Shown one piece after another: positions 8,890 through 20,411 of a DNA stretch of 64,000 bases. A model generated the notes under the pieces. The model was not told the DNA's origin. It worked only from the letters and a program-made list of their open reading frames with translations, and did no database searches. Both the position numbers and the translations under genes were made by a program. The DNA comes from an uncultured Thermotogae bacterium. Its GTDB lineage: Bacteria; Thermotogota; Thermotogae; Mesoaciditogales; Mesoaciditogaceae. Location of the stretch: assembly GCA_913056255.1 (NCBI GenBank), contig CAJXLN010000008.1, positions 1-64,000 of the forward strand. Direction: 5' to 3'. Numbering within the stretch: position 1 is the stretch's first letter; each line of letters begins with the position of its first letter.

Positions 8890-9372
8890 CTACTCAATCG
8901 TTAGAAGGGGTTGGTCTATATCAACCTGTTGACCATTTTTCACGAATATTTCTCTGATCTTACCGTTTCGAGGAGCAAGAATCTCATTTTCCATTTTCAT
9001 CGCCTCAATCACAACAAGAGTTTGACTATCTTTCACACTATCTCCAGGCTTCACGTTAACCTTGAGTACCGTACCTGACATAGGTGCAAGGACTTTCTCA
9101 GTTTCAGAAGTGCCCTCTTGAGATGAGGGAGATTGAGTCTTCTCCGTTGATTCTGTTGATTCTGCCTTCGCGATATTTGAAGCAGGTGGCTGTTTTACTT
9201 GTTGAGGCTGTTGAGGAGTCGATACAGTAGTAGTAGCAACTGGATTTTGAATTGGTTGAACTGCTGGCTGTTGTGCTAATTGAACATTTTGTTGCACGTC
9301 AGATACAGCCACTTCTTCAACTTCTACCTCATAAACTTTGCCGTTGACTTTTATCATGTATTTTTTGCTCAT
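8890..9372 (-). CDS. Biotin carboxyl carrier protein of a biotin-dependent decarboxylase or carboxylase
   Basis: 160 residues from the ATG at 9372. An N-terminal beta segment (YMIKVNGKVYEVEVEEV) is followed by a long Q/P/S/T-rich linker (about 25-85) and a C-terminal biotinyl domain with the biotinylation site EAMKMENE and the flanking VLAPMSGTVLKVNVKPGDSV. This is the architecture of gamma/delta-type carriers of methylmalonyl-CoA and oxaloacetate decarboxylases. The Shine-Dalgarno AAAGGAGG lies about 60 bases upstream and is separated from the ATG by a conserved hairpin; see the leader feature at 9373-9447. Confidence 0.88.
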   Translation of the reverse strand: MSKKYMIKVNGKVYEVEVEEVAVSDVQQNVQLAQQPAVQPIQNPVATTTVSTPQQPQQVKQPPASNIAKAESTESTEKTQSPSSQEGTSETEKVLAPMSGTVLKVNVKPGDSVKDSQTLVVIEAMKMENEILAPRNGKIREIFVKNGQQVDIDQPLLTIE

Positions 9373-9447
9373 AGAATTCGCGTCAAAGAAACTCTCCCAC
9401 CCTCGGGAAGAGGAATTGACGCATCCTCCTTTCAAAAAGAAAAATTA
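9373..9447 (-). promoter_or_regulatory. Promoter and hairpin leader bridging Shine-Dalgarno and start codon (copy B)
   Basis: Read on the minus strand: TATAAT just upstream of the leader, then TTTTTGAAAGGAGG, a hairpin with outer stem GCGTCAA/TTGACGC, a pyrimidine-rich internal loop and an inner stem closing on GAGGGT, then GAATTCT and the ATG of the biotin-carrier gene. If the hairpin forms, only about 9 unpaired bases separate GGAGG from ATG. A close relative precedes the gene starting at 20270. The 75-base unit is conserved while the two coding regions are unrelated. Confidence 0.6.
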
Positions 9448-9488
9448 TAGCCATCGGCACAATGAAATGAATGACAATACCGATAACT

Positions 9489-17631: not shown

Positions 17632-17659
17632 ATTTTAACACACGAAATTCAAAAATCAA
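17632..17659 (-). promoter_or_regulatory. Promoter of rpsT
   Basis: On the minus strand TTGATT (17654-17659), a 16-base spacer and TAAAAT (17632-17637) with an extended TG. It overlaps the last codons of the upstream peptidase gene. Confidence 0.6.
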
Positions 17660-20270
17660 AGTCAAATCCATATTTATATTTATTTTTGGTGATATCATAG
17701 CTCAAGTATCCATTCAATTCAAAACTTCTGTATAAAAACGAGTCAAATCCCAAACCGGATTTCACTCCAATTACGATATTCCCATTTTCGATTTGATACG
17801 AAGAAAATTGAGATATGTCAAGATACTTCAATCCATATTGACCTGTCACATCATACAGATCAATATGAAATCTCGGAAAACTCAGAGACTGAATGAATTT
17901 GATAGAATCATTTTTGAAATTCATTCCGATTTCCAAGACATTTGAGAAGAACGGGAGAGCACTTAACAAAGTGACATTGTAAGTCGGAGTTGACGGCTTA
18001 AGGACGGAAAAACTCCCTTTCCATTGCGAGTAAAGAGATTCTACACCTGTAGGATTGTTGGGAATAAAAGAAGGGTTCCACTCCAGGACTCCTGAAAACT
18101 CGAATTTATCACTCAGATGCGTTCCACTTGCTTCGATGGTGTATCCGAGTGTGGGATAAAAAAGCGCATCCCTTTCAAAGAAAAGAGTCGTTATCGGCAA
18201 CGAGAATTGTCCACTCAAAGATTTCAAATTTGTACTCAAAAAGCTTTGAACAGAAAGTACATACCTGTTGTAATTTATCATCCCAACGATCAAATTGTCA
18301 CTCGTTTTATCAGTAGAGATGTTTCCAAGAGCATAGAAGTTATTCTGACCGAGTCTGTCTCTTAAAATGTCAAATCCACTAAGTGAATATATTAAAGAAG
18401 TTCCATCGTAAGAGACCAAAGGCATGACACCGCTTCCAATAGTTTGCAGAGCGTCTAAATACGGTTTAGACTTTTTATTCACACTTAAATACACTTGTGT
18501 CATGTTTATTGAAGGATCGTACAACTTCTTTGAAAGTGTGAATCCCTTTACAAGTTTTGCCGATTGCTTCCATCTGTCTATCACGAACAAATCATATCCA
18601 CTTTTTGTATATCCGGCATAAAACAATTTATCACCGATCATTTTCGGAGAAAATGCACCTTCGGTGATATTCGTGATTTTGTAGAATTTTCCGGTTTCCA
18701 AATCCACAGTGTAAATATTGAAGATCCCATTACGATCTGGCTTTGAAGCGGAGAAAGTCAGATATTTGCCATCTTTGCTTACAACTGGATCACTTTTGAG
18801 AAAGTTTCCCGTTACGATCCTGTACAGCTTTCCTCCATCTAATTCGTAAATATCCTCAACACCATTTGCGTTGGCAGAAAGGTAAACTTTTCTCCCAAAA
18901 GTGCTCAAAGATGTGATAACTAAAGGAATAGGATGAACAAGTGTCTTGAAAGTGCCTTCCTTGAGTTTGTATTCTCCTATTGAATACAATCCTCCACTCT
19001 CCTTGGAATAAACTATCTCGTCATCCGAAAACCACGCTATAGAAATTGCACCCTCAAGCGGTAATTCTTTCACCGAATGATTCTCCAAATTCAGCAGAAA
19101 ACACTGTGTGTAATCATGAAAGCCGCCATCTTTAGCAACGAATCGAGTGAATATCAGGGATTTTCCGTTTGGAGAAACGGCAATGGATCTGACGTATCCA
19201 CCTTGATAAAGAAAACCTCCGGGTTCGTACACAGATGAAGAACGTGCACTTGAAATATCCAATCTTTTTATCTGTGCTACATTGTCACCACTTTCCGAGT
19301 AATAGTACACGTATTTATCACTTGCCACATTTGCAAGGGCTGTCCACCTGCCTGAATGTGTGATCCGAATACCTTCCAAGGGCTGATCAATTGATTTTAT
19401 TTTCTGGGACACATCATTTTTAACTTTGGTAATCCATTCTGAAACTATTTTCGAGAAAGGCTTCTTGATAACTTTTGAAAAAGCGTTGGCAACACCCAAA
19501 CTGTGATTTTCAGAAAGCACATCAACTGCCCTTTTAAGTGTTGTCGCACCGTAAGTTTCGACAATATATCTTATAAAACTCCCACCTATCATGTAAGGCG
19601 CGCCTATGGGGTACCAGCCGTCTGAACTGTACGTCGCAGCTCCGCCAAGACCTTTGAACCTTCCTGACAATACGAGTCCGCGCATGTACATTTCAAAAAG
19701 TGGGTCGTTTAGCCTACCGTGTCCATCGTTGAATGAAGTTTCTGAATATTCGGCAAGTCCTTCTTGGAGATATGCCGGAATGAACACGGAATTGTAAACA
19801 GTTGATAAAGGAGTACCGTATACTCTGACTTCTGACCTTCCACCGATTTGCGTTAGCAATATGTGGGTGAGTTCGTGTGTGAAAACGAAGTTAACCCAGC
19901 TTCTCATGGTTTGGGAAAAAAATCCGCGAGCTGATGAGTTCAAAAATATGAAGATCGTGTTGTCAACCGGATCTGCAAGAGAATTCACGATGTTGGTATC
20001 ATTTTCAAAAACGACCGTTAACTTCGAGAAGGGCTGAAAATTGTAAAAATCCGTGACACGTTCGTAAATTTCGTCTCCATCCTTCAAAAAAAGATTCACC
20101 GCGTATTCGCATCTGGGTTCGTACACCACATTTATATATTTGGTTGAAACAACTCGATATCCTACCCCTGGATTGGAAAACACCGGAATGAATGGATTCA
20201 TGGCCGAAAAAGCGGTAATAGCCACAAAAAACAAAGTCGCTACGACGAATGATTTCCACCAAACTTTCAT
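17649..20270 (-). CDS. Secreted zinc metallopeptidase with beta-propeller repeats
   Basis: 873 residues. A signal peptide (about 1-22) is followed by a gluzincin-like peptidase domain with HELTH at 132-136 and the downstream glutamate block YLQEGLAEYSE (168-178), matching the peptidase MA-like pattern. Residues about 300-600 are TolB/PD40-type propeller blades, with repeated patterns such as SPNGKSLIFTRF and SKDGKYLTFSAS. The last 250 residues are beta-strand-rich, end in an aromatic residue (GFDFDF) and resemble an outer-membrane barrel, which would tether it at the cell surface. The start ATG is preceded by the hairpin leader shared with the biotin-carrier gene. Confidence 0.8.
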   Translation of the reverse strand: MKVWWKSFVVATLFFVAITAFSAMNPFIPVFSNPGVGYRVVSTKYINVVYEPRCEYAVNLFLKDGDEIYERVTDFYNFQPFSKLTVVFENDTNIVNSLADPVDNTIFIFLNSSARGFFSQTMRSWVNFVFTHELTHILLTQIGGRSEVRVYGTPLSTVYNSVFIPAYLQEGLAEYSETSFNDGHGRLNDPLFEMYMRGLVLSGRFKGLGGAATYSSDGWYPIGAPYMIGGSFIRYIVETYGATTLKRAVDVLSENHSLGVANAFSKVIKKPFSKIVSEWITKVKNDVSQKIKSIDQPLEGIRITHSGRWTALANVASDKYVYYYSESGDNVAQIKRLDISSARSSSVYEPGGFLYQGGYVRSIAVSPNGKSLIFTRFVAKDGGFHDYTQCFLLNLENHSVKELPLEGAISIAWFSDDEIVYSKESGGLYSIGEYKLKEGTFKTLVHPIPLVITSLSTFGRKVYLSANANGVEDIYELDGGKLYRIVTGNFLKSDPVVSKDGKYLTFSASKPDRNGIFNIYTVDLETGKFYKITNITEGAFSPKMIGDKLFYAGYTKSGYDLFVIDRWKQSAKLVKGFTLSKKLYDPSINMTQVYLSVNKKSKPYLDALQTIGSGVMPLVSYDGTSLIYSLSGFDILRDRLGQNNFYALGNISTDKTSDNLIVGMINYNRYVLSVQSFLSTNLKSLSGQFSLPITTLFFERDALFYPTLGYTIEASGTHLSDKFEFSGVLEWNPSFIPNNPTGVESLYSQWKGSFSVLKPSTPTYNVTLLSALPFFSNVLEIGMNFKNDSIKFIQSLSFPRFHIDLYDVTGQYGLKYLDISQFSSYQIENGNIVIGVKSGLGFDSFLYRSFELNGYLSYDITKNKYKYGFDFDF

Positions 20271-20346
20271 AGAATTTGCGTCAAGGAAACTCTCCGATTC
20301 ATTGGAGAGAGGAATTGACGTATCCTCCTTTCAAAAAGGATAATTA
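20271..20346 (-). promoter_or_regulatory. Promoter and hairpin leader bridging Shine-Dalgarno and start codon (copy A)
   Basis: Read on the minus strand: CATAATTATCC, TTTTTGAAAGGAGG, ATA, a hairpin with outer stem CGTCAA/TTGACG, a symmetric 5/5 pyrimidine internal loop, inner stem CTCTCC/GGAGAG and loop AATGAATC, then CAAATTCT and ATG. The hairpin would leave about 11 unpaired bases between GGAGG and ATG. Compared with copy B, the outer stem is conserved while the apical stem and loop vary but still pair. Confidence 0.6.
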
Positions 20347-20411
20347 TGCCAATTGACATAAGGACTTACTTTCAATAATACCTCCGCATTTGTGCGGGAG
20401 GTGATTGATAT

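Follow-up and report, generated by a model that had tools for sequence, protein, structure and literature searches.

A probable miniature IscB derivative carries a Shine-Dalgarno motif and a hairpin to the start codons of unrelated genes in a Mesoaciditogaceae bacterium

Introduction

IscB, considered ancestral to Cas9, is under study for use as a genome editor; to our knowledge, the survival of its host elements when they land in dense genomes has been little discussed. HEARO elements, as Weinberg is said to have reported in 2009, integrate 5′ of ATGA or GTGA. Miniatures of IS200/IS605 elements (MITE/PATE type) are internally deleted and multi-copy, end in hairpins and have no coding capacity. 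In phage T4 gene 38, a hairpin lying between the Shine-Dalgarno (SD) motif and the AUG would restore their spacing, and mobile promoters and other dispersed regulatory repeats are portable expression signals 5′ of genes. PMC9755519 places HEARO RNAs in the 5′ regions of the IscB-type nucleases, and PMC9581776 gives NTGA as the target-adjacent motif of IsrB, a close relative of IscB.

Here, we analyse a repeated unit in a 64,000-nt stretch of DNA (the window) from the genome of an uncultured Thermotogae bacterium, hereafter G000. We consider it probable that this unit is a miniature, non-autonomous derivative of an IscB element (ISC/HEARO, IS200/IS605-like) whose right-end SD and hairpin keep the downstream gene translatable.

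Results

Two copies in the window

A reading of the sequence alone had proposed that an SD motif, a hairpin and an ATG follow each other at a peptidase gene, and that a matching unit precedes an unrelated biotin-carrier gene. Both observations hold, and the features are as follows (all on the minus strand).

20267..20408 (-): copy A, whole unit, probable miniature IscB derivative; match of covariance model R1 at 20267-20408 with 153 bits (copy A is in the R1 training set) and blastn matches to 17 other places
20352..20408 (-): copy A, left half, putative relic of the element's left end; two small hairpins and a likeness to the 5′ end of the HEARO omega-RNA
20324..20331 (-): copy A, SD motif AAAGGAGG, identified from the sequence; counterpart of the E-R-R codons near the iscB 3′ end in relatives
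20279..20320 (-): copy A, right-end hairpin, supported by folding, an outer-stem test and covariation over 35 right ends
20267..20270 (-): copy A, ATGA, that is, the peptidase start codon and a fourth base; also the right flank of the element and its presumed target-adjacent motif
17649..20270 (-): gene downstream of copy A, encoding an 873-aa peptidase-like protein (so named in the sequence-only reading), present in 10/10 genomes of the family
9369..9453 (-): copy B, right half of a second unit whose left half has decayed; R1 match at 9369-9474, ATGA at 9372-9369
8890..9372 (-): gene downstream of copy B, encoding a biotin-carrier protein of 160 aa (PF00364, E 2.7e-21)

In copy A, the SD (20331-20324) stands 53 nt from the ATG (20270-20268), which is the first start codon of its frame (ORF 17649-20270), and only 11 nt from it when the hairpin is skipped. 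The outer stem pairs CGTCAA (20320-20315) with TTGACG (20284-20279) and the inner stem CTCTCC (20309-20304) with GGAGAG (20295-20290), the half-loops TTCCT and TTTCC between them forming a symmetric internal loop. Three nucleotides separate the SD from the outer arm, and the 8 nt CAAATTCT separate the other outer arm from the ATG. Copy B has its SD at 9432-9425, an outer stem identical to that of copy A, its ATG at 9372-9370 and the same effective spacing of 11 nt. The span first singled out, 20271-20346, is thus a real feature, but it takes in no more than the right half; the full unit extends from 20408 to 20267 and is flanked by the stop codon of the upstream gene (20412) and by the peptidase ATGA.

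A dispersed family at start codons

The search for further copies that had been suggested for this genome revealed a repeat far beyond chance. Indeed, an 18-nt core allowing up to 3 mismatches gave 19 genome matches against 1 for the reversed control, and dispersed copies of the unit, each of about 140 nt, numbered 18 by DNA similarity (blastn) and 20 by R1, the model being trained on 16 of these 20 so that the remaining four are its independent finds. All copies but one have a right end (19/20), the exception being C26:234-320, a left part only, close to a contig end. Exact-pattern scans of named genomes and viral contigs, from which G000 itself was possibly excluded, gave 0 matches.

In 15 of these 19 copies, the right end leads straight into a start codon, each time that of an unrelated gene. 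The right flanks read ATGA (17), GTGA (1) and ACGA (1), in keeping with the NTGA target-adjacent motif. Among the four remaining right ends, L027 is followed by ACGA, L036 by GTGA opening a 35-codon frame, and L037 and L015 by ATGA opening 17 and 11 codons. Counting both strands, ATGA occurs 790 times in the window, and 15/19 at start codons has P < 1e-12 even if 70 genes all started with ATGA. Pfam recognises 13 of the 15 downstream products, many of them from their first residues on, including SNO glutaminase, FolD, HisS, Ham1, a metallophosphatase, a GH38 mannosidase, a sigma-54 activator and an ABC permease; no Pfam match was obtained for the product of L034 or for the peptidase-like protein downstream of copy A, of which the first 501 aa were searched. 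As a separate observation, the degenerate unit L037 (G000:C41:8342-8474) lies, by eye, just 5′ of an apparent tRNA-Leu gene and has lost its SD.

In relatives, both sites compared are empty. A bare gene junction with a short spacer and no unit was found at the peptidase locus in 9/9 and at the folD locus in 8/8 of the other genomes with a match, and the R1 search found no unit in the two genomes of the same genus. At these two sites the unit is an insertion relative to the relatives, whose spacers differ among themselves so that the exact unit ends and any duplications are unreadable from the empty sites. No ortholog of the biotin-carrier gene turned up in the stretch of G002 examined, so copy B has no such comparison.

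It is also conceivable that the unit owes its spread to transcription start signals that it carries along, as a mobile promoter would. A TATAAT-like string is seen by eye 5′ of the SD in many copies, but a consistent -35 element is not, and the exact ATGA positions are explained by targeting of the IscB type; we hold this reading to be very unlikely.

The right end corresponds to an iscB 3′ end

R1, built solely from the units of this genome, was run on 103 genomes in a phylum search that served as a blind test. Beyond G000, seven weak matches were obtained, spread over six genomes (E 5e-4 to 0.04 per genome); in six of them the matched sequence is the 3′ end of an iscB ORF or fragment, after which comes the ATGA of a host gene. 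These six iscB ends have GAAAGGAGG near the end of the ORF and a hairpin that differs in its stem but shares the TTCC/TNTCC internal loop. The iscB C-termini of relatives read ...CERREASF or WERRENSAF, their E-R-R codons being the equivalent of the SD, and the iscB identity of the ORFs is given by NF040563 and PF14239 in 4/4. R1 moreover locates the right end in 21 of the 28 IscB loci offered. The right end of the unit is thus homologous to the iscB 3′ end together with its right-end hairpin. The seventh match, L085 (G102:C23:5426-5541), has a hairpin readable as AIPPTVEIVGFLA, followed by GTGA, with no iscB; a sub-threshold match to cspA RNA lies close by.

In another genus of the family, three genomes possess iscB, and its right ends mostly abut start codons there too, while iscB was not found in G000, G001 or G002. 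Since the unit, at about 140 nt, encodes no IscB, it is presented as a derivative and not as a full element.

The identity of the left half is weaker than that of the right end. In pairwise comparisons with the HEARO 5′ ends of 23 IscB elements, the unit consensus shows a position-by-position likeness, and for 17 of the 23 at most 2/500 shuffles scored as high. When the left halves of two units were searched by cmscan, the HEARO model gave no match, and among 25 IscB loci a left-half model, R2, matched only one exactly where HEARO starts (E 0.27). HEARO lies upstream of iscB in 20/20 of the named loci searched, out of 80 fetched, and also at L081, L086, L108, L110, part of L109, L082 and L087. 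The left half may well be a relic of the HEARO 5′ end. The strongest link between the units and IscB elements is L114, an element of about 236 nt in a genome of the sister genus, in which a HEARO 5′ end (33 bits, E 0.0011) is followed by a deletion and an iscB 3′ end. It sits between two genes and ends at the ATGA of a CbiQ/EcfT-type gene; as both its ends are recognisable, it represents an intermediate miniature.

Pairing and folding

The sequence-only reading expected further copies to keep the stem. In 18 copies of this genome, with arms read by eye and L015 left out owing to the deletion of its hairpin, 105 of the 108 outer-stem pairs form. Thirteen pairs are changed, of which 10 are still paired, 3 of these through double changes; column shuffles matched the observed values in 56/20000 (pairs) and 41/20000 (double changes). 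For the whole structure, the 16 units of alignment A3 did no better than column shuffles (202/500 for pairs), these copies being too much alike. A wider alignment comprised 35 right ends: copy A, three further loci, and 31 of the 37 named loci that were eligible. In it, 86.7% of cells pair, a level inflated by the parser that chose the named loci, since it required a stem; 103 cells show double changes, compared with 29.9 in shuffles (0/500) and no more than 27 after sliding of the alignment.

RNAalifold predicts little beyond the right hairpin for the whole unit. In predicted folds of copy A, the SD pairs with an upstream U-run, and a strong local hairpin, UAUCCUUUU-UGAA-AGGAGGAUA (window 20321-20342), could hide it; in the consensus, it pairs with UUCU before the AUG. 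Such folds would inhibit translation, not help it, and the module could dampen translation.

Evidence bearing on translation

We examined the right ends of IscB loci with a parser that handled 52 of 80 loci (28 were dropped, several ending at contig ends or masked). As it accepts only [AG]TGA ends and stems of 4 pairs or more, both the share of ATGA (50/52) and the pairing level are biased upwards. An SD-like motif is present in 49 of the 52 parsed right ends, and the SD spacing has a median of 10 nt (IQR 8-13) with the hairpin skipped, against 55 nt raw. The GG of the SD occurs in all three iscB codon phases (33/5/11), one frame dominating and related loci not being independent. Furthermore, ATGA opens an ORF of at least 60 codons in 28/52 right ends against 316/1062 control [AG]TGA sites downstream in the same loci (P 3.5e-4).

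In G000, the SD is kept in 15/15 copies at start codons against 1/4 elsewhere (P 0.004), and the identity of the SD-plus-hairpin part is higher in the start-codon copies (P 0.017); these contrasts are small and post hoc, and the only 4 non-start copies may simply be older. The left half is at or near background identity (median 0.62, 95% 0.71) in five to seven start-codon copies, and in two of these it has been displaced by a second repeat. We infer from these sequences that the SD-hairpin has a role in translation, the stem bridging the SD and the ATG.

The same structures could be read otherwise, the unit being a miniature IscB element in which SD and hairpin serve only transposition and the iscB protein, and the genes being expressed through upstream coupling or despite the insertion. 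PMC6006769 describes subterminal end structures recognised by the IS200/IS605 transposase, the SD falls in one codon phase in most IscB loci (33/49), and predicted folds can also hide it. Against this, the SD is found in all three phases with an effective spacing near 10 nt, and it is kept at start codons, whereas decay affects the left end in copies at those sites, although transposition requires this end just as much. We thus regard a purely transpositional role as unlikely, even if the right-end hairpin is also, and probably was first, a transposon end.

Translation could also start at an ATG directly after the SD (GGAGGATG), giving a leader peptide whose TGA overlaps the ATGA of the gene and couples the two by termination and reinitiation. 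By eye, the consensus reads M-R-Q-F-L-S-P-M-N-W-R-V-S-L-T-Q-I-L-stop with the ATGA overlap, and the frame is a relic of the iscB C-terminus. Copy A, however, has ATA in place of the ATG, several copies show frameshifts or stops (by eye), and the ATG lies 0 nt from GGAGG, which is too close for normal initiation. Such a peptide is accordingly quite improbable.

Finally, the unit had been suggested to respond to temperature or a ligand, and one may imagine a regulatory leader (riboswitch, thermometer or attenuator) common to a regulon and spread by recombination. The upstream part does fold, and in silico there are alternatives that sequester the SD. This upstream part is the sole candidate sensor, and it is at background identity, or lost, in several copies that keep SD and hairpin; the downstream genes share no function, relatives including the two of the same genus lack the unit, and the Rfam matches within the window are tRNAs only. 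We therefore rejected the riboswitch or regulon reading, to which we give hardly any credence. The other suggestion, that of a portable module, fares better: the SD-hairpin-ATG arrangement does precede unrelated genes with its outer stem kept, but the sequence-only reading had not recognised this module as the right end of a miniature derived from IscB.

Discussion

Our results favour a unit derived from IscB, and the following origin can be proposed. The first ~50 nt of the omega-RNA end would have been joined to the last ~30 iscB codons and the right-end hairpin, with ~1.4 kb missing. Like full IscB elements, the miniature lies directly 5′ of ATGA, a sequence that often serves as a start codon where genes are densely packed, and an insertion there would cut the gene off from its own ribosome-binding site. 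The element end in turn carries AAAGGAGG and a hairpin whose feet stand about 3 nt from the SD and about 8 nt from the ATG. In the folded mRNA, the SD would be brought to about 11 nt from the ATG, and the downstream gene could still be translated.

The unit was presumably moved by Y1 transposition. A full mover was not found in G000 (an assembly 89% complete), which has no iscB and, as Y1 transposase, only a 114-aa frame, L200 (G000:C3:62316-62543). A copy of the second repeat lies about 100 nt downstream of L200, which recalls REP/RAYT systems. This second dispersed repeat is more abundant than the unit, its 114-nt query giving 41 matches in G000 (for instance C21:11259-11372 and C12:45731-45843), 40 in G002 and 6 in G001. 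It interrupts or adjoins units on C12, C17 and C26, and several contigs start or end in it.

On a larger scale, we lean towards the view that IscB elements across several phyla carry a right-end SD and a spacing hairpin that make insertion before ATGA translation-neutral, and that the miniatures are portable ribosome-binding sites now driving housekeeping genes, hisS and folD among them, selection keeping the SD-hairpin half while the other end decays. If true, a built-in ribosome-binding site with a bridging hairpin explains the frequent exact start-codon positions of IscB elements. Moreover, the 15 genes form a natural multi-copy set on whether an mRNA hairpin restores SD-AUG spacing. In a literature search made up mostly of search results, and to which Weinberg 2009 and Kapitonov 2016 did not belong, no paper linked IscB ends to a built-in SD and a bridging hairpin. 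New in our account are the family of miniatures, its retention in the role of a portable ribosome-binding site, and how generally SD-hairpin-ATGA occurs at the right ends of IscB elements.

Among known systems, the unit shares with IscB/ISC elements and their HEARO omega-RNA (RF02033, NF040563) a right-end hairpin with a TTCC/TNTCC loop, AAAGGAGG before it and ATGA after it, as well as a left end that resembles the HEARO 5′ end; it differs from them by its length of about 140 nt, with neither iscB nor a full omega-RNA, and by its 20 copies in one genome. Like MITE/PATE-type miniatures, it is internally deleted, multi-copy, hairpin-ended and non-coding, but it comes in all probability from an IscB element, lies at start codons and has a built-in SD. 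T4 gene 38 likewise has a hairpin that, by lying between SD and AUG, would restore their spacing; in our case, the hairpin originates from the end of a transposon and recurs in front of 15 unrelated genes. Lastly, the unit is, as mobile promoters are, a portable expression signal upstream of genes, while the signal for which we find support is one of translation and not of transcription.
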